Below are positions 4,233 through 21,386 of a stretch of DNA of 23,643 bases, piece by piece. Positions within the stretch are counted from its first letter, which is position 1; every line of letters begins with the position of its first letter. Where the stretch lies: positions 1 through 23,643 of IMG/VR virus record IMGVR_UViG_3300017987_000365. One strand, given 5' to 3'. The notes under the pieces are model-generated. The model had not been told where the DNA came from, ran no database searches, and saw only the letters and a program-made list of their open reading frames with translations. This DNA comes from a virus. Position numbers and translations under genes: made by a program.

Positions 4233-5165
4233 ATGTCCCAGCCCACTCTGCTGGACCTCGCGAAGCACACGGCCGACGACGCGATGATCCCCCTCATCGA
4301 GCAGTCGGTCCAGTCCAACCCGGAACTGCGCGTCATCCCCGCGATGCCGATTTCGGGCCAGTCCTTCAAATGCCTCATCCGCACCTCCGTCCCGACCGGC
4401 GGATTCCGCAACGCCAACGAGGGCGCCGCCGCGGTCAAGTCGACCTGGGCGAACAAGCTCATCGAGGCGTTCATCCTCGACCGGGCGATCGAAGTTGACA
4501 AGGCCGTCGCAGACGTACATCCGCGCGGCGCGGCCTATTACATCGCCCTCGAGGGCGCCGGTCTGCTGGAAGGCCAGTTCCGCGCTGCCTGCTCCCAGTT
4601 CTACTACGGCACGGAGAGCGAAGTGGCCTCCTCCGCCGCAAGCAATGCGAGCAAGGGCTTCCCCGGCCTGATCGAGCTCTACGACTCGACGAACATGGTC
4701 GTGAACGCAGGAGGCTCCGGCTCCGACTGCTCATCCGTCTGGCTGCTCGCCACTGGCGACACGAAGGTCCAGTGGGTCGTCGGACAGGACGGCGAGATGA
4801 CGCTCGGGGATCTGCAGGAGGACGTGCGGCTCACCGACGACGACGGCCTGCCGTACAACGGCTATCGCCAGCCGATGCTCGTCTTCCTCGGCGCCCAGCT
4901 CGTCAATCCGAACAGCATGGTCCGGATCAAGAACATCGAGCCGGACAACAAGCTCGACGACGATGACCTCTACGCCGCGCTCGAGCTGTTCCCGACCGGC
5001 ATCGTCCCCAACGTCATCCTGATGACACGGCGGTCCAGAGGCTACCTCCGCCAGAGCCGCACGGCGACGAACGCCACCGGAGCGCCCGCTCCGATCCCGA
5101 CGGAGTTCGAGGGCATCCCGATCGAAGCGACGGACGCCATCAGCGACGCGGAGACCAACGACTAA
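4233..5165 (+). CDS. Major capsid protein (HK97 fold, gp7-like family)
   Basis: 310 residues, directly after the protease/scaffold as in lambda (gene E). The pattern LLDLAKHTADDAMIPLIEQSVQSNPELRVIPAMPISGQSFKCLIRTSVPTGGFRNANEG resembles the N-arm and E-loop of gp7-type HK97-fold capsid proteins. The C-terminal EFEGIPIEATDAI resembles their conserved final P-domain strand (usually EGIPI-x-x-TDAI). The ribosome site AAGGAG (4219-4224) is strong, 8 bases from ATG, consistent with high expression. The 61-base gap before it (4172-4232) has no clear promoter. A 24-base perfect palindrome follows the stop. Confidence 0.85.
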   Translation: MSQPTLLDLAKHTADDAMIPLIEQSVQSNPELRVIPAMPISGQSFKCLIRTSVPTGGFRNANEGAAAVKSTWANKLIEAFILDRAIEVDKAVADVHPRGAAYYIALEGAGLLEGQFRAACSQFYYGTESEVASSAASNASKGFPGLIELYDSTNMVVNAGGSGSDCSSVWLLATGDTKVQWVVGQDGEMTLGDLQEDVRLTDDDGLPYNGYRQPMLVFLGAQLVNPNSMVRIKNIEPDNKLDDDDLYAALELFPTGIVPNVILMTRRSRGYLRQSRTATNATGAPAPIPTEFEGIPIEATDAISDAETND

Positions 5166-5769: not shown

Positions 5770-7848
5770 ATGAACGTCGTTGTCGCCACAAAGAACTGCC
5801 GCGAGTGCCGCGAGCTGAGAAAGCTCCGTCGCGCTCAACCGGGCACGAAGGTCGTCGACTACGAGGACCTCGCCCGCCTCGTCTGCCCCGTGCCGCCCGG
5901 CCGCCGCGATCTCAGCCAAGCGCCACAGCCTGAAGACACCTCACCCCACAACGTCATGGTGAAGATCCCGCCCGCGCCGGAGATCTCCCTCGAGATGTTC
6001 TTCGCGCTTTTCGGCCAGGGCCTGGCCGCGCCGATTCCCGAGTTCGGCAACGGCGTCCCGACGGATCGCCAGTGCCTCCTCAGCCTCTGCCGCACGTTTC
6101 GGCCTCGGCGCGTGATGGAGATCGGCGTGCGCTACGGAGCCACGGCGTATCTTCTCCTGCGCGAATGCCCCTGGATCGAGGAGTACTGGGGCGTCGATTG
6201 CGGCCCCGAATACAAAATGGGAATCCCCACTCAGCACGGCGAGCACCCCGACTGCGTGGGCCACGACGGCATCGACGCCACGCAGGAACACGCCGTCTGG
6301 CGCGAGAAGGATACGGCCTGCGGCAAGTGGGTCGACGATCCACGCTTTGTCCTGAAAGTTCTGCCGAACGGCTCGCACGACATCGATCCGGAGACCTGCG
6401 GCAAGTTCGATGTGATCTTCGTCGACGGAGATCATTCGCGCCCTGGCGTCTGGTTCGACAGCAAACTCGCCCGGCAGATCGTCCGCCGCCCGGGGGGCGT
6501 CATAGCCTGGCACGATTACAAGCGCGGGAATCCGGACCCCGGCGCCGGAGCCGCGCACGATGTTGTTGATTTCCTGAATCGCCGCGAGCGCCGGAAGATT
6601 CATAAAATACAAGGGACATGCCTGGCGTTCAAAATCACCGAGGAAACCGACAATCATCTGCCCTGCAGCACGTTCAAAGCGATCCATATTCCCGACTCGC
6701 CCGTCCAGTTCAATTCCTCCATTGCCGCCGCCGTTCGAGAGCCTCACGGCAAGCCGACCGGCTATCTCGTCGCCCTGCGCCGCGATTATAAGCTGCCGGG
6801 CTCCATGGGCCTCGCCTTCGTTGACGAGGACTTCGAGGCCGCGTCCGACACGCTGATGCAGTGGCCGAACGGCGAGGATCCGCGCCTCGTGCGCGTGCCG
6901 GGCACAAATCGCTACCTCCTGCTGCACAGCCGCCTCGAGGGCGACGTGCCGCGCATCCAGGTCGCCACGGAGATCGAGGCGAGCTATCCGGACAAAGTCA
7001 AAATCGTGCGCCGGACTCGCCTGCGCACCGTCATCGGCGGCAAGGGTCTCGACCCGTCCATCCTCAAAGCCGGGCACGGCGCCGCGCCTCAGCCCGACTA
7101 CAAGCGCAACGAGATCACGCCGCTCGCGATCATCGAGAAAAACTGGGTCCCGTTCATCTACGGGCAGAAGCTGCTCATCTCCTACGGGCTGAACCCGCAC
7201 ATCGTCATGGAAATCGCCGACTGGGACAAGGGCGTCGTCCGCCCGCTCCATGCGACCTACACAGAGCGCCTGCCGATCGACATGCATCTGCACGGCTCCA
7301 CGCCGCACGTCTACGTGCCGGCCCTCGACGCCTATCTCAGCCTATTTCACACGAGTTGGACGCGCCTGAAATACGATCCGCGCCTCTTCGACGCGGCAGC
7401 GGGCTGCTATTCGCTCGGCTTCCTCCTCATCGAGGCCAAACCGCCCTTCAGAATCACGCACGCAAGCCGCCGAGGCGTCACCTTCCACGATCTTTATCCC
7501 GAAATCCACTTCGACACGACGCGGCCCAACGTCACCGGCACGATCTTCCCCGCCGGCCTCGTCATTCGGGGCGACCAGGTCATCGTGAGCTACGGCGAGG
7601 GCGATCTGCGCACGCGCGTCGCCGTCTGCAAGCTCGAAGACGCTCTCAACACGCTCGAACCGATCTACCCCACGATGGAAGAGCCGGACGTCATGGCCTC
7701 TCTGCCGATCGACAGCCCCGGAGCCCCCATCGCGCACGTGGATCGCCGCCTCTTCAAGCCCGGTCCAAGATCCCGGCGGGAGCGCCCGTCCGTCCCCTCT
7801 CCGGACGCCCGCCGGGACCACCGCCAGGAGTACGCGTATCGTGATTAG
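5770..7848 (+). CDS. SAM methyltransferase fused to a GH130-like beta-propeller
   Basis: 692 residues, not a lambda-type virion gene. Residues 1-90 include a small Cys pair (CRECRELRKLRR) in what may be a short metal site. Residues about 100-290 form a class I methyltransferase: motif I at 115-123 (VMEIGVRYG), FDVIFVDGDHS at 214-223, and GGVIAWHDY. From about 300 to 660 there are repeated propeller-like blades: GEDPRLVRVPGTNRYLLLHS (368-387), QKLLISYGLNPHIV, and VIVSYGEGDLRTRVAVCKL (from about 604). The EDPR and YGxxD segments resemble GH130 glycoside phosphorylases and hydrolases acting on mannosides. The methyltransferase type fits sugar O-methylation, but the substrate is unknown. The final 30 residues are Arg/Pro-rich. 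The gene lies between capsid and tail genes and overlaps the next gene by 8 bases. Probable role: modifying a glycan on virion or host (inference). Confidence 0.7.
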   Translation: MNVVVATKNCRECRELRKLRRAQPGTKVVDYEDLARLVCPVPPGRRDLSQAPQPEDTSPHNVMVKIPPAPEISLEMFFALFGQGLAAPIPEFGNGVPTDRQCLLSLCRTFRPRRVMEIGVRYGATAYLLLRECPWIEEYWGVDCGPEYKMGIPTQHGEHPDCVGHDGIDATQEHAVWREKDTACGKWVDDPRFVLKVLPNGSHDIDPETCGKFDVIFVDGDHSRPGVWFDSKLARQIVRRPGGVIAWHDYKRGNPDPGAGAAHDVVDFLNRRERRKIHKIQGTCLAFKITEETDNHLPCSTFKAIHIPDSPVQFNSSIAAAVREPHGKPTGYLVALRRDYKLPGSMGLAFVDEDFEAASDTLMQWPNGEDPRLVRVPGTNRYLLLHSRLEGDVPRIQVATEIEASYPDKVKIVRRTRLRTVIGGKGLDPSILKAGHGAAPQPDYKRNEITPLAIIEKNWVPFIYGQKLLISYGLNPHIVMEIADWDKGVVRPLHATYTERLPIDMHLHGSTPHVYVPALDAYLSLFHTSWTRLKYDPRLFDAAAGCYSLGFLLIEAKPPFRITHASRRGVTFHDLYPEIHFDTTRPNVTGTIFPAGLVIRGDQVIVSYGEGDLRTRVAVCKLEDALNTLEPIYPTMEEPDVMASLPIDSPGAPIAHVDRRLFKPGPRSRRERPSVPSPDARRDHRQEYAYRD

Positions 7849-8872
7849 CGCAAGCAATCTGGTCTATCCCCCGACCGTGACAGCGGACGCGGATCGCTAC
7901 CGCTACCTCTATGCGGCCCTGGAGCAACTCCGCCTCAAGCACAACGAGCGGGCGGGTGATTTGAGTTGCGAAGCCAATTACTTCCGGGGTGAATGGAAAA
8001 AGCCTCACGCCGCTATCATTCACGAGATTCTGCGTCTCAGGCCGTTGGTCAAGACGCCTGATTTTGTAGAGACACTTGAGGCAAAAAACGACCCAAAACT
8101 TATTACGCTGAAGAGTGAAGGAAAGGCTGCTTGCAAGTCTGCTGATTACAAAACCCTGACTGGCGTTGATCTCGATAAGGCCACAGGCACCCTTGAACTC
8201 AGCGACCCTCTCGAAGATTTCACGGGATATACAGAGGATGACACGCCCGGAAGGGCGACCGTAACCGCAAACAAAATAGAGATTCGGGACATTGACCGGG
8301 ATGAGCAAGTGCTGGTTTACGCTGACAAGGGCGTCGCACATTTTGGGGAAACATGGCTTCACTATGTAAAAGAAACGCTCATCAATAACACGGGCGTGGG
8401 CTCGCAGATATGTATGTTTTGGGCGGTATCCAATGTTATCGAAGGGGTGCAGGATTGGGGGACAAACAACCGGGAGGCAATCGGGCTCTGGATTGAAAGC
8501 AACACGCGCTATTTCCGGCTGCAGGATTATAAGACGGGCAGTTCGGATAATAGCGCCGGTGTATATTTACCATCAGCAGGCACACCAGTATACCCCGCCA
8601 TTGAACGCACAAGCGAAACCGCAGTTGAATCTCGACTTTATAGTGATGCGGCGAGAACAGTTTTAGAGGATACGCTGGCAGTCTCAACCACAAGTGGCGA
8701 TCGTCATCGCTACGTGTTCGGATATGTCAGCCACGATCAAGCCGGACAAACTGGGCGTGAGACGGATATCGACATTGAAAACCTTGACCTGAATGAAGGC
8801 GGGGCAGCCGCAGTCGGTCCCTTCGCGGGGGCCTATCCGCTTAAAGGGGCCTTTGATCCGCCTTGGAGATAA
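7841..8872 (+). CDS. Unrecognised protein, possible jelly-roll domain, lower G+C than its neighbours
   Basis: 343 residues starting at GTG 7841 after AGGAG (7826-7830), overlapping the end of the methyltransferase fusion. The N-terminal 80 residues are helical and charged (YLYAALEQLRLKHNERAG). Residues about 150-310 are beta-rich with aromatics (AHFGETWLHYVKETLINNT, ICMFWAVSNVIEG, AIGLWIESNTRYFRLQDY, HRYVFGYVSHDQAG, DIDIENLDL), a pattern seen in concanavalin/LamG-like carbohydrate-binding jelly rolls. The G+C content is visibly lower (28 of 60 bases at 8041-8100), with AT-rich codons absent from adjacent genes, so it looks recently acquired. Possibly a head or tail appendage that binds sugar (inference). 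Confidence 0.6.
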   Translation: MISASNLVYPPTVTADADRYRYLYAALEQLRLKHNERAGDLSCEANYFRGEWKKPHAAIIHEILRLRPLVKTPDFVETLEAKNDPKLITLKSEGKAACKSADYKTLTGVDLDKATGTLELSDPLEDFTGYTEDDTPGRATVTANKIEIRDIDRDEQVLVYADKGVAHFGETWLHYVKETLINNTGVGSQICMFWAVSNVIEGVQDWGTNNREAIGLWIESNTRYFRLQDYKTGSSDNSAGVYLPSAGTPVYPAIERTSETAVESRLYSDAARTVLEDTLAVSTTSGDRHRYVFGYVSHDQAGQTGRETDIDIENLDLNEGGAAAVGPFAGAYPLKGAFDPPWR

Positions 8873-8875
8873 GAA

Positions 8876-10330
8876 ATGATCACTCAACTCGATACCGAAA
8901 ACGCTGACCGCGACCTGACCTCTCTAGTTACGGTGCTGACCGACACGCCCGACGCGAGCAACCCGATGATTTGCCAGGGCCTTGTCCTGTTCGGCGACGG
9001 CGCGAAAGACCTCGACGGCACCGGTGGGACATTCGAGTTGGTCATCACCGTTGGCGGTCAGACCGTGCAGCCCTCACCGCAAGAGGTTGAGTTTGGCACA
9101 GAGGTTCGTAGTTCAGTGTGGACAACGCCCTTCCCCGTGCCCGCAAACATGGAAGTCATCATGCGCGTGAAGTCCCCGAACGCGGGCGACAACGACGTGG
9201 ACGTCACGGCCTATCTTTACGACATCTCGGCGCATCCGAGCCTCGTGCAGAACCATCTCGATCATCTGCTGGCGGCCGACTATGACCCGTCCTCGAAGCC
9301 CGGCGTGGCGACGGCGCTGTTGAACGAGATCGTCGAAAACGACGGCGGCGTGTCGCGCTTTACGGAGAACGCTCTGGAGCAGGGGCCGGACACCACCACG
9401 GGTCTCGCGCTCCACGGTGACTATGACGCGGCGAAAACGGCGGCCTCCAGTACGGATGTGACGACGGCGCATAGTACGACGGACGGGAAAATTGACGCAG
9501 TACAGGACGCTGTGACCACCATTGCCGAGGACGTGGAGAACATTGACGGTGATGCCATGCGCGGGACGGACGGCGCGAACACGACCGTCCCCGATGCCGC
9601 AGGGACAGCCGCCGCGCTCCACGCGATCACGGATGCGCTTGAACCGCATGGGACAGCCATGCGTGGGACGGACGGCGCAAATACCACTGTGCCGGATGCG
9701 GCGGGAACGGCGGCGGGACTACATACAACGACGGACAGTAAGATCGACGGGCTGAACAACTTTGACCCGGCCAATGATGAAGTTGATATCGGCAAGGTCA
9801 AGGGCGTGGCTGTTAGCGGCGTGAATGACTTCAAGGCGACGGGCTTTTCCACGCATGCGGCTGCGGATGTCTGGAGCGTGGCGACGCGCAGCCTGACGAC
9901 ATTCGGGACGCTGGTTTCAGATATTGCAACGGCGGTTTGGGCTGCGGCTGCGCGCACGCTGACGGCCTTCGGGTTTACGCCGTCACTCCACAGCGACTAT
10001 GACGCGGCGAAAACGGCGGCTTCTAGCACGGATGTGACGACGGCGCATAGTACGACGGACGGGAAAATTGACGCAGTACAGGACGATGTGACCACCATTG
10101 CCGGGGACGTGGAGAATATCGACGGTGACGCCATGCGCGGGACTGACAGCGCGGCCACGGCGGCTGAGGTCGTGACGGCGCTATTTGCCAACGCATCCAT
10201 GAAGGAAGTGCTCGCGTTCGCGCGCGGCAAGGTCGTGATCGACGGGAACGATGTCAAGTTCTATGACACCGATGACACCACACTCCTCTACACGATGACC
10301 CTCTCGGCGAGTGGGAGAACCATCTCGTGA
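8876..10330 (+). CDS. Repeat-containing fibre-like structural protein
   Basis: 484 residues. The N-terminus (1-120) is a beta domain (GGTFELVITVGGQTVQPSPQEVEFG, MRVKSPNAGDNDVDVTAYLYD). The remainder is Ala/Thr/Asp-rich with repeated segments: DYDAAKTAASSTDVTTAHSTTDGKIDAVQD twice, AMRGTDGANTTVPDAAGTAA twice plus a partial third AMRGTD, and related VWSVATRSLTTFG/VWAAAARTLTAFG. Such repeats are common in phage tail or head fibre shafts. The C-terminus (GKVVIDGNDVKFYDTDDTTLLYTMTLSASGRTIS) is a short beta element often found at the end of such proteins. Ribosome site GGAGA (8865-8869). It overlaps the next start as GTGA. The exact fibre class is unknown. Confidence 0.6.
   Translation: MITQLDTENADRDLTSLVTVLTDTPDASNPMICQGLVLFGDGAKDLDGTGGTFELVITVGGQTVQPSPQEVEFGTEVRSSVWTTPFPVPANMEVIMRVKSPNAGDNDVDVTAYLYDISAHPSLVQNHLDHLLAADYDPSSKPGVATALLNEIVENDGGVSRFTENALEQGPDTTTGLALHGDYDAAKTAASSTDVTTAHSTTDGKIDAVQDAVTTIAEDVENIDGDAMRGTDGANTTVPDAAGTAAALHAITDALEPHGTAMRGTDGANTTVPDAAGTAAGLHTTTDSKIDGLNNFDPANDEVDIGKVKGVAVSGVNDFKATGFSTHAAADVWSVATRSLTTFGTLVSDIATAVWAAAARTLTAFGFTPSLHSDYDAAKTAASSTDVTTAHSTTDGKIDAVQDDVTTIAGDVENIDGDAMRGTDSAATAAEVVTALFANASMKEVLAFARGKVVIDGNDVKFYDTDDTTLLYTMTLSASGRTIS
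9419..9567 (+). repeat. Direct repeat, copy 1 (149 bases, coding)
   Basis: Matches 9995-10143 over 149 bases with only about ten differences and no gaps. It encodes DYDAAKTAASSTDVTTAHSTTDGKIDAVQD... in the fibre-like protein. Many identical third positions show recent duplication or gene conversion. Confidence 0.9.
9557..9724 (+). repeat. Two diverged tandem-type copies of a 66-base coding unit
   Basis: Units at 9557-9622 and 9659-9724 both encode MRGTDGANTTVPDAAGTAA followed by a His-containing segment. Third-position changes are numerous compared with the 149-base repeat, so this duplication is older. Confidence 0.8.
9995..10143 (+). repeat. Direct repeat, copy 2 (149 bases, coding)
   Basis: Second copy of the unit at 9419-9567, 576 bases downstream and in the same frame. 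Recombination between them would delete 192 codons without shifting the frame. Confidence 0.9.
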
Positions 10331-15202: not shown

Positions 15203-16059
15203 TGGCGCTCGTCAACGTCCAGGAACGCTGGTCCGGCGTCAACGGCCAGATCGAGCAGATCAATATCGAGGGCGCACAGCGCGGCGTGGCCGGGCGAGCG
15301 TTCACCGCGCTTTTCGATGCGGCGCCGACGTGGGTCGATGCGATCGACGCAGACGGCATCCCCGATATCGGGGATCAGCATCCCGACGCAAGCTGGCTCG
15401 CCCTGCGCCGCAAGCGCGTCGTCCCGTTGGGGCCCCTGCTCTTTGACGTGATCTGCGAATACGACGGCCAGGACTCTCCCCTCGTCGCTCCCGTGCAATT
15501 TGCCTGGCAAGAGGCCTCCAGCACGGAGCTTGTCGATCGAGATGCGGACGGGAACGCCCTGGTGAACGGAGCGGGCGAACCCTATCAGCTCCCGAAGCAG
15601 ATCAGCGACCTGGTTGCAGTCATCACACGCAACGAGGCGGCCTATCCGTATTCCACGATGTATGCCTACTGGAACGCCGTCAATTCCGACACGGTCGCCA
15701 GCGTCTGGCCGGCCGGCACCGTCAAAATGTTGCCGATCACGGCCGTGCGTCAGGACGACGGTACGACCTATTACTACGTCGTCACGTATCGCATGCAATT
15801 CAGGTCGCTCGATGCCGACAGCCTGGGCGGATGGAATCCTCGCGTTCCGAACAAGGGCAGGCGCTATCGGGCTGCGCCGGGCGGCGACCTGCTGCGCGTC
15901 AAGGATCTCCTGGGCGTCGATGAGGCCCTGTTGAACGCGGACGGCACGCTGCTCAATGGCGTGGGAGCCGAAATCTCGGGCGGCGATCCCACGGACTGGC
16001 TCACGCCCCAGATCGACAAGTCCATTGCTTTTTCGGCGCTAAGCATCTCATGGCCATAA
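15202..16059 (+). CDS. Tail protein downstream of the tape measure, family not recognised
   Basis: 285 residues from ATG 15202, which overlaps the tape measure stop (TGATG); the frame is open upstream but this start fits the coupling. The sequence is beta-rich with WSGVNGQIEQINIEGAQRGVAGRAFTALFD, LRRKRVVPLGPLLFDVICEYDGQDSPL, and YYYVVTYRMQFRSLDADSLGGWNPRVPNKGRRY. It ends with DLLGVDEALLNADGTLLNGVGAEIS and a final hydrophobic FSALSISWP. The position equals lambda M/L/I, so it may be a distal-tail or tail-tip protein. It contains a perfect 18-base palindrome at 15358-15375. Confidence 0.5.
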   Translation: MALVNVQERWSGVNGQIEQINIEGAQRGVAGRAFTALFDAAPTWVDAIDADGIPDIGDQHPDASWLALRRKRVVPLGPLLFDVICEYDGQDSPLVAPVQFAWQEASSTELVDRDADGNALVNGAGEPYQLPKQISDLVAVITRNEAAYPYSTMYAYWNAVNSDTVASVWPAGTVKMLPITAVRQDDGTTYYYVVTYRMQFRSLDADSLGGWNPRVPNKGRRYRAAPGGDLLRVKDLLGVDEALLNADGTLLNGVGAEISGGDPTDWLTPQIDKSIAFSALSISWP

Positions 16060-16700
16060 GCCCCAACATCCAGGTCCTCGACCCGCGCGCGCTCCGCGAC
16101 ATGGAGCTGCTGATGCAGTGGCGGCGGCGGACCGGGCAACGCCGCGCGATCGTCGAGTCATGGAACGCGCGCGACGATACGCCGGACGCCCAGAGCGTGC
16201 CGATCTACAACGACGTCGGCTCGGAGATCCCGCAGTTCGGAATCATCGAACTCGGGGCGCTGCTCTCGGACGGCGTGCTCCACAACGCCGACAAGCCGGC
16301 CTACAGCTCGATCTCGCGTTACGCGATCGCGTGCACGCCGATCCCGATCGCCAGCCCCGGACGCGCCTGGATCGTCGGCATACATCCCGTGCTCATCATC
16401 CTCAAGGACGGCGAGTCGATCGCCATCCGCGATCACGTCCGGCCGCACAAGAACAGTCACTATGGCCGCATTTTTGAACTCGGCCCGATGATCGTCGAGT
16501 CCGTGATCGGTGACGACTCGAATGACACGGGCGACGATCTGCTCACGTCGGCCTGGGTCGCAATGACCGAGGAGCGTGGCGACCACAAGCTCGCCGACAC
16601 CGGAGGCGTTGCCGACGGCGCCTATCAAGCATTCGCCTTGAGCGCGGCCTATGCGGTCGCCGCGGGCGAGGTCGGCCGGCCCGCGATAGATTTGGCATAA
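16050..16700 (+). CDS. Hypothetical protein, probable tail-tip component
   Basis: 216 residues, start overlapping the upstream gene by 10 bases. It has an N-terminal helical part (LRDMELLMQWRRRTGQRRAIVESWNARDD), a beta-rich middle (YSSISRYAIACTPIPIASPGRAWIVGIHPVLIILKDGESIAIRDHVRP) and an Ala-rich end (AYQAFALSAAYAVAAGEVGRPAIDLA). I recognise no family. Its coupling to tail genes and lack of signals suggest a virion or assembly protein. Confidence 0.45.
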   Translation: MAISPNIQVLDPRALRDMELLMQWRRRTGQRRAIVESWNARDDTPDAQSVPIYNDVGSEIPQFGIIELGALLSDGVLHNADKPAYSSISRYAIACTPIPIASPGRAWIVGIHPVLIILKDGESIAIRDHVRPHKNSHYGRIFELGPMIVESVIGDDSNDTGDDLLTSAWVAMTEERGDHKLADTGGVADGAYQAFALSAAYAVAAGEVGRPAIDLA

Positions 16701-16706
16701 AATGGA

Positions 16707-18233
16707 ATGGCTGTTTACGAAGATGAATTCGATTATTCCCCGCCCGCGCACGTACTGGGCTCTCAGCCGGACGAGCCGTGGGCGAACACGTCCAACATCT
16801 ACACGGGCGAAATCACCGGATTTCCGTGGTCGCATTCCGCCTATATGTATAACAACTGGACCAACGCGTATTCGTACAACACCTTTGCCGATCTGCCGGG
16901 GCGATTCACATACGAAGCCCACGTCAAAACGTTTGGGACGGCGTATCCGAGCGGAAGCGACTGGGTCGACGTCGGGCTCACGATTTATGAGGGCTATTAT
17001 TACGTCCTGTGGACGCACAGCCACAAAGCGGCCACAGGCAAACTACAGTTCTACGCGAACGGCGTTCTCCTCGCCGAGACCGTCGTGCCGTCGCCGGGCC
17101 TCGGGGGCACCTACGCGGGCACGATCAAGGTCGAGGTCAACGGGCCGAATTTCAAGGTCTACTGGAACGACATCTTTTACTTTTCCATCGACGACTCGGG
17201 CGCATCGAGTGGCCGATTCGGCATTCGCGGCTATGAACGCGACTGGCGAGGCGGCGCATGGGATTGGGTCCGAATCACCTATGGCGGTGGAGGTTATCCC
17301 GTGCACATCATAGAGGACTATGAGGGAGAGACCTACGCGGCGAATGCGGCCGTGATCGGCGACTACGTCCAGATCGAGGACACGGAGGGCAACTACGTCA
17401 TCGCGTCGGCGGCCCCCGCGTCGGCCTATGGCGACAAGATTCTGGCGATCGGCCTCGACTCGCTCTGGTCCACGCTGGCAAGCTCTCTGGCGTCATCGCG
17501 CGCATCGAGCCGGGCCTCCTCGCTGGCCAGTTCGCTTGCGTCCTCGCTGGCCAGTTCGCTTGCGTCGAGCCGCGCGAGCGCCTTCGCCTCGAGCGGGGCG
17601 TCGTCCGGCGCGGGCTCTTCCCTCTGGTCCACGCTCGCATCGTCACGCGCATCGAGCCTGGCCTCGTCGCTGGCGAGCTCCCTGGCCTCATCGCGCGCAA
17701 GTTCTTTGGCCTCATCCCGCGCGTCCAGTCTTGCCTCATCGCGCGCGTCCTCGCTTGCCAGCTCCCTCGCGTCCTCACGGGCCAGCTCGCGGGGAAGCAG
17801 TCTGGCGTCGAGTCTGGCCTCATCGCTCGCGTCAAGCCTCGCATCGTCACGCGCATCGTCGCTGGCCTCGAGCCTGGCATCGTCGCTGGCCTCCAGCCGC
17901 GCATCGTCGCGCGCGAGTTCGCTCGCGTCGAGCAACGCCACGGGCTGGCAATCCGTCCCGCCCAGCTCCGGCGGTGGACCGTATCCCGGTGGATCCTATT
18001 GCTGCTACGGCTATCTCTGCCAGCTGAGCGCCGGGGACCCGTATGCCGAGGTCTGCTCGGCGACGGGCCATATTGCCGATTGCTCCACGCAGCCGAATTG
18101 CCATTATGAGCAGTTGGCGGATCGCTGCTCCGCTGATGGCGCCGGCAACGACTCATGCCCCAACGGCGGCGGTGGCCTCCGCTATTGCTATCTGTTGACT
18201 CATTCTGAGTGCTCAAACGATTCCGTGTTGTGA
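16707..18233 (+). CDS. Serine-rich-repeat tail fibre or adhesin: LamG-like head, XASS repeat stalk, Cys-rich tip
   Basis: 508 residues in three parts. Residues 1-235 are a jelly-roll/LamG-like domain with many Trp, Tyr and Asp ([95 protein letters not shown]), typical of carbohydrate-binding domains. Residues 257-409 are about 38 tetrapeptides of the form (L/R/G)-A-S-S with a few breaks, including two SLWSTLASS blocks. Residues 410-508 contain ten cysteines in Gly/Tyr-rich sequence. The ribosome site is poor (AAATGGA only). It follows the tail-tip genes and precedes the glycosyltransferase genes. I infer a receptor-binding fibre or decorated adhesin with O-glycosylation potential. Family identity is unproven. 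Confidence 0.65.
17475..17933 (+). repeat. 12-base-period coding repeat, XASS tetrapeptides
   Basis: 459 bases encode about 38 four-residue units, with L or R mostly in the first place. All six serine codons are used, so the units differ in DNA although the protein pattern is strict. Some stretches, such as gccagttcgcttgcgtc, recur exactly and show recent expansion. The period also makes long artificial open frames on the opposite strand. Confidence 0.9.
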
Positions 18234-18242
18234 GATCAATTC

Positions 18243-18677
18243 ATGGGCAACCCTGTCGAAAAAAATCCGGCTGAGAGCTGCGTCGAGGCGACGATCATCC
18301 GAGACGAGCGTCACGATTCGGTCAAGTGCGCGATCATCAACGGGCTCATGGGCCGCGACGCTGGCATGCACATCGACGGCTGCGCCTTCTGCCGTCATGC
18401 CGACGGCGACGATTCGTTCTGCGTCCGGATGGCAAAAAGCCTTTTGCGCACGTGCATCTCGAGCGGGCGATTTCCAAGTCTGGAGAATTCCAAAGACCTG
18501 GCGACGCTTTCGCAGAACTACGCCGCGCTCGCGACGCGCGAGGAATGCGAATCGTTGCTCGCCCTGGCCACGGCGAAAATCACGGCCACGCAGACGATCG
18601 GCGAGGCGGAGGGCTTGCAGCAGCTACGCGAGATCGACGAGGGACTCGGCACGAACGCACTGGAGACGATGCTATGA
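18243..18677 (+). CDS. Small Cys-rich hypothetical protein linked to the glycosyltransferase gene
   Basis: 144 residues with seven cysteines, six of them in the first 85. Notable are CAII...DGCAFCRHADGDDSFCVRMAKSLLRTC, which could bind zinc, then a helical C-terminal half (LATREECESLLALATAKITATQ, EGLQQLREIDEGLG). I recognise no family. No strong ribosome site precedes ATG 18243. The stop overlaps the start of the next gene at 18674, so it is probably coexpressed with it. Confidence 0.5.
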   Translation: MGNPVEKNPAESCVEATIIRDERHDSVKCAIINGLMGRDAGMHIDGCAFCRHADGDDSFCVRMAKSLLRTCISSGRFPSLENSKDLATLSQNYAALATREECESLLALATAKITATQTIGEAEGLQQLREIDEGLGTNALETML

Positions 18678-20878
18678 GCGACCCGCTTCTGGAAAAGTTC
18701 CGGCAACGCCGCGCCAACGACGGCCACCGCGAACCCTGCATCCATCGGGGGCCAACGATCCGCGTCGAGGAGACGTCCTGCTGCGGCCGCATCGAATTCT
18801 TCCATTGCCCCGCGCGCGGCCGCGAGACGAGGCACACGGAGTGCGTCCAGTGCGTCTATCACGCCGCGGTCCCCCCTCCCGTGCGGACATCCGCCCCGAT
18901 CCTGCTTTGCGTGCGATTTGCGGACTATCGCGAACGCAACTGGCACTTCTTCCGGGAGCCGATCCTGCGCGCCGGCTGGCGCATCGAGTTCGCCGACGTC
19001 GATGAGCGCGGGCCCCTGGCTGCAATCAAGGAGAAGGTCTTCGACATCGGCGTCCCCGACGCGATTGTGCAGTGGGATGAGCACGGCTGCGCGCGGTCAA
19101 TCGCCTCGTGGCGCGAATGCGTTGCCTGGGCGTACGAGCGCGGCGTCGTCCCTCTCATGATGGACTTCGGTTACGTCAGCCACTATGAGCAGTTCATGTT
19201 CGACGTTTATGGACCAGACGGATCGAGCATGATCGACGTCGCCTGGGCGACGATCTCCACAGCGCGCGTGGACTGGGATGATGTGCTCTTCGCCCCTCGC
19301 GATCGCCGTCGCCGCGTGCTCCGCGGCTATAAGGACGCCACGCTGAAGCCTCGCCTCATTGAGGAGCCCTATGTCTGCCTCTGGCTTCAGCAATATGCCT
19401 CGCTCTCGCGATTCGGCGAGCGACACAACGACGAGCTGGTCGCCGCCGCCGCCACGCAGGCCAAACGACTGGGCCTGCACCTGGCCGTGAAGACTGCGCC
19501 GTCCACGCCCGAGCATGAGGCTCTGACGGACGTGCCCGAGGATGTGCTCGTTTTCCGTCACGAGGACTCTGATCGCGACATCAATCAGCGCCTGGCCGTC
19601 CACGCCGAGTACTGCCTCGTGATCTCCAGCTCGATCACGAATGAGTTTGTCCTCAACGGCCTGCCCGTGGTCGCCCTCGGCCGCTCCTGGTTCAACGGCA
19701 AGGGGATCTTCTACGAGCCGGCCACGTGGGCCGATCTGCCGGCGAAGGCCCCGGCGATCGATCAGCTTATGCGCAACCGCTGGCTGCGATGGTGGCTCTC
19801 GCGTCAATTCGCCTCCAGGGACGCCGGGCCCGCCCTGAAGCGCATCGTCCGCCAGGCGCGCCGTCACAACCGCGCCTCAGCCGAGCGCCCCGGATCGAGC
19901 GTCACGTGTGTCTACGCCCCGGACGCGCAGACGGAGGCCGTGGCCACGCGCAGCCTGCAATGCACGCGCGAGGCCCTGCCCGACTGGAAGACGATCGTCG
20001 CCGTGGACGCGGCGTCGCCCGCCTTCCTGATCCGCGCGCTCAAGTCCGGCATCAATCTGATTGCCGACGGCGAGGGCGCGCCCCCGCGCATGGGGCGTCT
20101 GCTGGCCGCATCGCTCGCCCAGGCCGAGGGCCCCTACGTCTTCACGATCGAGCACGACTGCTTCATCGACCGCGACCAGGCCGAGCGGGCGGTCCGCCTG
20201 ATGGACACGCTCCCCGCGCGCGTCGCCGGCCTCTATCTTCAGTCCGTCACGACCGAGGGTCAGCCAACTTACCCTTGGACGAACGACTGGCCGCACGCGC
20301 AGGCATGGGAGGGCCGCCCGCGCTTCAGGCGCCCCGCGTGGTCGACGCTGAGCTGCACGATCTGGCGCGCGTCGGCGCTAAAACACGTCCGATGGGATCG
20401 CGTCCCGGAGCTCGAGTACGTGGACGGCTACATCTGCAAGCAGCTTACGGCCATGGGCTATTGCACGCTGATGACGGACCGCGTCCACGCGATCCATCTG
20501 CCCCACACGGGCCGGAAGTCTCTGGCCGGCCAGGCGCGCGTGCTCGCGATCGGATGCGATCGTCATTGGGCGTCGTTGCGCGGGATCCGTTTCGGATGGA
20601 ACGGGGAGCCCGGCCTCGACGTGCGCGGGGCAGTCCCGGGCGCCCTGCCCTTCGACGATGCGTCCTTTCGCGAGATTTGGATCGGGCGTCTGCTGTCCGA
20701 CCTCGACGATCAGCAGCACGCCGTGTTCCTGGCCGAGGCCGCGCGCGTGCTCCGGCCGGGCGGCCGGCTGCACGTCAACGTCCATGACGAGCGCATGCGG
20801 ATGCAGCTCGGCGAGAGTCCATTGAAAATCGTGCGCGAGGCCGAGGGCCGCATCAAGGCCCTTGCGCCGGGAGGATAG
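18674..20878 (+). CDS. Multidomain glycosyltransferase: Cys-rich N-terminus, GT-B-like domain, GT-A domain and methyltransferase
   Basis: 734 residues. An N-terminal Cys/His cluster (C22, C36, C37, C45, C57, C60; CIHRGPTIRV...CCGR...HC...CVQC) resembles a zinc ribbon that I associate with glycosyltransferases of environmental phages and bacteria (recollection). Residues about 70-400 resemble capsule-type GT-B enzymes (VISSSITNEFVLNGLPVVALGRSWFNGKGIFYEP). Residues about 415-620 resemble a GT-A family 2 enzyme with the DxD-like EHD (493-495) and DGYICKQLTAMGY. Residues about 622-734 are a class I methyltransferase (VLAIGCD, LPFDDASFREIWIGRLLSDLDDQQHAVFLAEAARVLRPGGRLHVNV). ATG 18674 is chosen by the ATGA overlap with the upstream stop; the frame is open further back. 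It lies beside the Ser-repeat fibre gene, so the fibre is a plausible acceptor (inference). Confidence 0.7.
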   Translation: MSDPLLEKFRQRRANDGHREPCIHRGPTIRVEETSCCGRIEFFHCPARGRETRHTECVQCVYHAAVPPPVRTSAPILLCVRFADYRERNWHFFREPILRAGWRIEFADVDERGPLAAIKEKVFDIGVPDAIVQWDEHGCARSIASWRECVAWAYERGVVPLMMDFGYVSHYEQFMFDVYGPDGSSMIDVAWATISTARVDWDDVLFAPRDRRRRVLRGYKDATLKPRLIEEPYVCLWLQQYASLSRFGERHNDELVAAAATQAKRLGLHLAVKTAPSTPEHEALTDVPEDVLVFRHEDSDRDINQRLAVHAEYCLVISSSITNEFVLNGLPVVALGRSWFNGKGIFYEPATWADLPAKAPAIDQLMRNRWLRWWLSRQFASRDAGPALKRIVRQARRHNRASAERPGSSVTCVYAPDAQTEAVATRSLQCTREALPDWKTIVAVDAASPAFLIRALKSGINLIADGEGAPPRMGRLLAASLAQAEGPYVFTIEHDCFIDRDQAERAVRLMDTLPARVAGLYLQSVTTEGQPTYPWTNDWPHAQAWEGRPRFRRPAWSTLSCTIWRASALKHVRWDRVPELEYVDGYICKQLTAMGYCTLMTDRVHAIHLPHTGRKSLAGQARVLAIGCDRHWASLRGIRFGWNGEPGLDVRGAVPGALPFDDASFREIWIGRLLSDLDDQQHAVFLAEAARVLRPGGRLHVNVHDERMRMQLGESPLKIVREAEGRIKALAPGG

Positions 20879-20882
20879 CATC

Positions 20883-21386
20883 GTGCATGAAAGCTCGTGG
20901 ACGCACATGAGAGAGATCATCGACCGGCGTTTCCGCCTCGTGCGAGAGCGCACGATCTGCGTTCTGGACGTCGGCTCGATGAGCGTCAACAGGAGCTATC
21001 CGCACACGTATCGCGAGCACATGCCCCCCGCGTGGATCTACCGCGGCTGCGATATTGCGCCGGGCAAGAACGTCGACCTGGTCCAGGCGGACCCCTACAT
21101 CCTGCCGGCCGTGGACGGGGAGTTCGACATGGTCATCAGCGGCCAGTGCCTCGAGCACGTCCGCTATCCCTTCAAGCTGGTCGCCGAGATGGCGCGCGTC
21201 ATGAAGAGCGGCGGCGCCATCATCCTGACGGCCCCATGGAATCAACGCGAGCACCGTTATCCGAAGGACTACTGGCGGATTTTCCCAGACGCCATGCACG
21301 CCATGATGGAAGACGCCGGCCTGCACTGCATCGAGGCCTATACGCGCGAGAACGATTGCTGGGCACTCGGCGTGAAACCGAATTGA
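20883..21386 (+). CDS. Class I SAM-dependent methyltransferase (methyltransferase 11 type)
   Basis: 167 residues from GTG 20883, 8 bases after GGGAGG (20869-20874). Motif I is VLDVGSMSVN, then DIAPGKNVDLVQADPYILPAVDGEFDMVISGQCLEHVRYPFKLVAEMARVMKSGGAIILTAPW, a clear Methyltransf_11-like core with the EHV of motif post-II, and a C-terminal YPKDYWRIFPDAMHAMMEDAGL. Such enzymes methylate small molecules, sugars or lipids; the type with DxWRIF-like endings is common in glycan clusters. It lies 4 bases after the GT-fusion stop and probably acts in the same pathway. It is not a DNA methylase by motif (no target-recognition domain, no DPPY). Confidence 0.85.
   Translation: MHESSWTHMREIIDRRFRLVRERTICVLDVGSMSVNRSYPHTYREHMPPAWIYRGCDIAPGKNVDLVQADPYILPAVDGEFDMVISGQCLEHVRYPFKLVAEMARVMKSGGAIILTAPWNQREHRYPKDYWRIFPDAMHAMMEDAGLHCIEAYTRENDCWALGVKPN

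Follow-up and report, generated by a model that had tools for sequence, protein, structure and literature searches.

The window analysed here, a 23,643-nucleotide stretch of viral DNA (IMG/VR record IMGVR_UViG_3300017987_000365, positions 1 to 23,643), probably contains an operon that encodes a mucin-like tail-tip fibre together with its own enzymes for glycosylating the fibre and capping the glycan with methyl groups. The recurrence of the same kind of pairing in related viruses suggests that members of this group add sugars to their own tail fibres. We favour this fibre-modifying reading because the operon is tight and co-directional and because the pairing recurs in relatives. The four genes lie on one strand after the tail proteins, in the order fibre, 144-residue protein, 734-residue enzyme and methyltransferase. 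Counted from the preceding tail gene, the first two gaps measure 6 nt and 9 nt, the next junction is an ATGA overlap, and a likely GTG start at 20883 follows after 4 nt. The features discussed below are as follows.

4233–5165, + strand: major head protein (phrog_212, E 7e-23), the basis of the query for relatives.
5770–7848, + strand: 692-residue protein in the head-neck gap, Methyltransf_24 (PF13578, E 7e-9) with a GH130-like propeller (PF04041, E 0.0018).
16050–16700, + strand: open reading frame for a 216-residue tail protein directly 5' of the fibre, in the place of the relatives' tail-tip protein.
16707–18233, + strand: 508-residue tail-tip fibre; in the translation, head approximately residues 1–250, XASS array 257–409, Cys-rich tip 412–508.
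17475–17933, + strand: array of XASS tetrapeptides within the fibre (residues 257–409), 34 exact units, the proposed O-glycan acceptor.
18243–18677, + strand: 144-residue protein with Cys pairs; its stop overlaps the next start (ATGA).
18674–20878, + strand: 734-residue fused enzyme; Cys cluster, candidate GT-B domain (approximately 45–400), GT-A segment (approximately 415–640) and methyltransferase (approximately 640–710).
20883–21386, + strand: 167-residue SAM-dependent methyltransferase (Methyltransf_11; PF08241, E 8e-11; phrog_32762, E 8e-11).

Profile searches identify the virus as a siphovirus with genes for portal, head protease, major head protein, neck, tail terminator and tube. Its large terminase was found on a longer contig of the same virus (IMGVR_UViG_3300029258_003829, 32,614 bases), of which the window represents positions 7965–31607 with 2 mismatches. 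A search with an alignment of three head proteins returned 79 viral loci and five prophage loci, and the named hosts of all five prophage matches are planctomycetes. A match to the head protein was located in Thalassoglobus neptunius KOR42 (L214). The virus is a member of a planctomycete siphovirus lineage. The record of its closest relative, L132 (head protein 84%), stops before the fibre. L132 has a homologue, 75% identical, of the 692-residue protein, whose propeller end matches a beta-1,2-mannosidase model (E 8e-5) and which is a possible further glycan enzyme. The gene for this fusion sits between the decoration and neck genes, and two fibre-like genes that follow it (7841–10330) are apparently missing from L132.

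The tail protein that precedes the fibre matched no profile in Pfam or PHROGs, and its position after the tape measure and g15202 agrees with that in the relatives. The fibre itself is dominated by its repeat, with 75 Ser between residues 255 and 412. The earlier note counted about 38 XASS tetrapeptides, a figure that is right if near-matches are added to the exact units; the degenerate units RASA, GAGS and RGSS stand beside the latter. Its description of a Cys-rich tip also holds, as the final ~97 residues contain 10 Cys. At the DNA level the array consists of tandem repeats with periods of 12, 24 and 60. Of 35 DNA units 30 are distinct, third codon positions vary freely, the first and second positions of the Ala codons are invariant, and the Ser codons are a mixture of TCN and AGY (27% AGY). 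Since the units are distinct, the third positions free and the Ser codons mixed, the array points to selection on the amino acids and not to recent expansion of the DNA. We read the open antisense frame across the array as a by-product of the same codons. The lectin-like head once proposed for this protein lacks profile support: searches of Pfam and PHROGs with the fibre gave no match, and those of the PDB gave weak ones, of low complexity and with E values of 0.37 or worse. No signal peptide or hydrophobic segment was found in the fibre. Searches of IMG/VR for homologues of the head and the Cys tip gave nothing beyond the same virus, and tblastn of the fibre against INPHARED gave no match. 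A DNA-pattern search of IMG/VR for XASS arrays returned coincidental AASS and GASS arrays in unrelated frames, which were discarded.

The small Cys-rich protein expected right after the fibre is present as the 144-residue product, for which no profile match was found. The next gene had been read as a GT-B/GT-A/methyltransferase fusion, a description of which the methyltransferase and a GT2-type domain stand and a firm GT-B domain does not. The C-terminal methyltransferase (PF08241, 23.4 bits, residues 651–699) lies over the Pfam cut-off. The GT-A segment alone gives a weak match to PF00535 (E 0.011) and retains an acidic EHDCFID motif. Over 96 residues it shares 30% identity with a planctomycete protein (BLASTP E 5e-9) that is a clear GT2 (PF00535, E 1e-13). 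Because this relative is a clear GT2, a GT2-type glycosyltransferase is supported as the middle domain of the predicted enzyme. In the N-terminal half the only match is to PF05159, Capsule_synth (E 0.28), over a segment resembling a GT-B nucleotide-sugar loop, and we treat this half as a weak, Capsule_synth-like candidate for a GT-B domain. A single-sequence AlphaFold model of the protein has a pLDDT of 38. An IMG/VR search with the whole fused enzyme returned the same virus only, and tblastn against INPHARED returned nothing. The second methyltransferase is confirmed by its profile matches; its likely start is the GTG at 20883, which follows GGGAGGA, rather than the TTG at 20862. No membrane segment and no DNA-methyltransferase motif was found in the 734-residue enzyme or the methyltransferases, which argues against modification of the host envelope or of DNA. 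Clusters of C-x-H-R and C-x-x-C occur at the N-terminus of the window enzyme (18674–18830) and at the C-terminus of an enzyme in a related virus, G036 (L249:1450–1605). A Zn-ribbon common to the two was considered and rejected, the clusters being alike by eye with no significant BLASTP match.

Five viruses in the head-protein set have a low-complexity Ser/Thr-repeat tip with sequence beyond it: the window virus, G023, G027, G036 and G043. An enzyme counted as a glycosyltransferase, in one of them by a DxD motif only, adjoins the repeat tip or lies within a few genes of it in all five. In G023, two Ser/Pro-rich proteins precede genes for a heptose-1-phosphate adenylyltransferase, a methyltransferase and a GT9-like protein. 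The adenylyltransferase (L228:2349–3632, minus strand) is of the D-glycero-beta-D-manno-heptose 1-phosphate type (TIGR02199, E 1.5e-49, just below the cut-off), suggesting that these virions may be decorated with heptose. G027 has STTGGG repeats and a Cys-rich end with a GT2 directly after it. The SSSSIV repeats and Cys of G036 precede a 432-residue protein with a DxD motif that no profile confirms, and the TGTGE repeats and Cys of G043 precede a 561-residue fusion with a GT4 domain and a methyltransferase. By comparison, a glycosyltransferase lies beyond the tip in 3 of the 15 repeat-poor viruses of this set (G039, G040 and G047), for which at least 2 kb of sequence beyond the tip was required. 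The Ser/Thr arrays of G033, G035 and L162 reach the contig end. The head-neck gap of G035 holds two GT-B genes and a methyltransferase. A further planctomycete phage carries a tail fibre with a major tropism determinant N-terminal domain (L247:11259–12347; PF18454, E 2.6e-16), near which there might be a diversity-generating retroelement.

A second set was anchored independently on the tail protein before the tip, with a five-sequence alignment as the query; 80 loci were examined among at least 551 matches. Three families were used to search 44 records, of which 2 that end before the Ser-rich gene were set aside. A glycosyltransferase or methyltransferase match was present in all 28 records with Ser/Thr-rich tips, compared with 0 of 14 repeat-poor records that extend 3 kb or more past the tail protein, the matches being counted in most records anywhere in the whole record and not only at the tip. 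As many as 25 of the 28 belong to one lineage, L297 included, in which the Ser-rich protein also has a Hint-like domain, leaving three independent types (L268, L302 and L305). Three GT-type genes occur in L268, GT25 and GT8/GT32-type genes in L302, and a GT25 fused to a sulfotransferase in L305; the families represented across the three are GT4, GT2, GT25 and GT8/GT32-type. The 25 records of the Hint lineage carry a methyltransferase or a GT25, and nearly all have a methyltransferase and an MptE-like protein between the tail tip and the Ser-rich gene. In four of them (L279, L297, L306 and L344) a GT32-type gene lies behind the Ser-rich gene. The MptE-like protein is possibly a glycosyltransferase, judging from a PF01973 match below the Pfam cut-off (E 0.0056) and a sialyltransferase lead (E 0.068); a PDB fold search with a poor-quality model of it gave no match. 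In L272, L275, L284, L285, L294 and L323 the Ser-rich Hint protein adjoins the methyltransferase and the MptE-like protein, and the genes behind it resemble restriction- or helicase-type defence islands. Tail-tip glycosyltransferase fusions also occur at L231:12093–14567, L252:9391–11187, L268:7161–8552 and L305:13499–14827. The glycosyltransferases there are joined to B12-binding/radical SAM, radical SAM or sulfotransferase domains, a hint that the fibres may be modified in unusual ways.

When the Hint lineage enters as a single case, the combined table gives an enzyme in 9/9 repeat viruses and 3/29 repeat-poor viruses (Fisher p 1e-6). If the window and the whole Hint lineage are removed and G036 is scored as having no enzyme, it gives 6/7 and 3/29 (p 3e-4). 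The Fisher values ignore kinship, the records being fragments and phylogenetically non-independent; repeat-poor status was judged partly by eye, and the enzyme calls combine profile searches with reading by eye. The expectation that related phages would keep the repeat gene and glycosyltransferases together is borne out, in that the two occur together well in excess of the background, the repeats and the enzymes being non-homologous. The relatives' repeats (STTGGG, TGTGE, SSSSIV, SSP and poly-Ser) have mainly Ser/Thr and small residues in common. As repeats and enzyme families alike vary from lineage to lineage, the pairing looks convergent, and its recurrence with non-homologous partners argues for function over shared descent. 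Position and pairing stay constant while repeats and enzymes change, as one would expect of enzymes that are matched to their acceptors. The finding named in advance as damaging to the idea, the same glycosyltransferases in phages with no serine-repeat fibre, did not turn up, since no phage has the same fused enzyme; other tail-tip glycosyltransferases do occur with no Ser/Thr repeat in G039, G040 and G047. These cases imply that the acceptor need not be a repeat and that other virion proteins may be acceptors too.

In the mechanism that we propose, the 734-residue enzyme would act in the host cytoplasm late in infection and glycosylate the XASS serines from host nucleotide sugars. Its two transferase domains would extend the glycan, and the sugars would then be capped by its methyltransferase domain and by the separate methyltransferase. 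Once glycosylated, the stalk would be stiff and stretched out, keeping either the Cys-rich tip or the head domain off the tail, and in this form it could alter contact with the planctomycete surface. The fibre's role as acceptor, the sugar that is used, the sequence of steps, the presence of a GT-B domain and any effect on binding are our inferences.

The acceptor could instead be a different protein of the virion, from the head, the decoration or elsewhere in the tail, with the Ser-rich fibre serving as a flexible spacer. We regard this as unlikely, though it is the best placed of the alternatives. Capsid glycans have been reported for the mycobacteriophages Che8 and Rita (cited in PMC11256854), and enzymes also occupy the head-neck gap, namely the methyltransferase of the window and the glycosyltransferases and methyltransferase of G035. 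The tail-tip glycosyltransferases of G039, G040 and G047 would likewise fit, but enzymes adjoin Ser/Thr-repeat genes far more often than repeat-poor tips. It is more doubtful still that the enzymes alter the host surface, by receptor masking or lysogenic conversion, and that the place after the fibre is a cargo site. Some phages are known to encode glycosyltransferases that alter the sugars of the host surface (PMC10955285), and cargo-like restriction- or helicase-type genes follow the tail in L272, L275, L285 and L294. Against this, the enzymes have no membrane segment, among their neighbours neither a flippase nor a membrane transferase was noticed, their genes are tightly enclosed by the tail fibre and likely late genes, and the bias towards Ser/Thr-repeat neighbours would be left unexplained. 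An unmodified flexible or helical linker, with enzymes acting on small molecules or nucleic acid, is the least probable reading: in its favour, no acceptor motif is known, and the Ala, Leu and Arg between the serines of the array could by their sequence favour a helix, but the very different repeats of the relatives share mainly Ser/Thr and small residues and the enzymes have no DNA-methyltransferase motif.

Modification of the fibre by its neighbouring enzymes, the reading that we prefer, has parallels in bacterial adhesins. The transferases that glycosylate Fap1 are encoded in a cluster around its gene, and the adhesin leaves the cell through the accessory Sec system (PMC5207161). As in Fap1, GspB and SraP, the window has a long Ser-rich repeat domain of exact XASS units, and a multi-domain glycosyltransferase candidate (GT2 via its relative, GT-B weak) adjoins the repeat gene. 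Cytoplasmic O-glycosylation of repeats would be a logic common to both (PMC5207161). Membership of that family, which the earlier note had brought into play, is not borne out, as homologous enzymes, a signal peptide and accessory Sec are all missing. No profile of the conserved initiating pair Gtf1/Gtf2 (GtfA/GtfB) was returned for the operon genes tested in Pfam and NCBIfam, the fibre has no hydrophobic N-terminus, signal peptide or wall anchor, and no SecA2/SecY2-like gene was noticed among the neighbouring open reading frames examined. The window protein also differs in being a phage tail-tip protein, with methyltransferases, planctomycete hosts and enzymes that are non-homologous by the profiles used. 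In a second bacterial system, the enzyme TibC adds heptose to serines of two adhesins, TibA and AIDA-I (PMC4358343). G023, with its Ser-rich fibres, heptose adenylyltransferase and heptosyltransferase-like protein, resembles this arrangement of a dedicated enzyme that modifies adhesin serines. Unlike the TibC systems, the window operon has no heptose gene or TibC profile match, and its proposed substrate is a virion protein. The window system thus appears to be functionally like the Fap1/GspB and TibA systems without being homologous to them. Among phages, phage-encoded glycosyltransferases have been linked to covalent glycans on capsid proteins in Che8 and Rita (as cited in PMC11256854). The window likewise has a glycosyltransferase candidate, in an operon with a tail-tip virion gene. 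In contrast to those capsid targets, what we propose as the target in these planctomycete phages is a dedicated tail-tip fibre with a Ser/Thr repeat, whose glycans would also be capped with methyl groups.

Reports of phage enzymes that glycosylate the virion have so far concerned a few mycobacteriophages, with capsid proteins as the main targets, and our literature search found no paper on serine-rich phage proteins in planctomycetes. What we infer to be new here is a form of phage virion glycosylation whose target is a dedicated, mucin-like fibre of the tail. Whether planctomycete siphoviruses share a modular form of fibre glycosylation seems to us evenly balanced. Such a system would combine interchangeable Ser/Thr-repeat, often Cys-tipped fibres with interchangeable glycan kits made up of glycosyltransferase fusions, heptose supply, methyltransferases, sulfotransferases and radical-SAM fusions. 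If it exists, every virus would have a mucin-like fibre with its own sugar chemistry. It would also yield many new protein-glycosylating enzymes matched to their acceptors and offer a direct handle on host recognition in Planctomycetota. If such an arrangement for the fibre that contacts the host is widespread and has been reinvented repeatedly, it would show phages to evolve mucin-like adhesins with glycan chemistry of their own.
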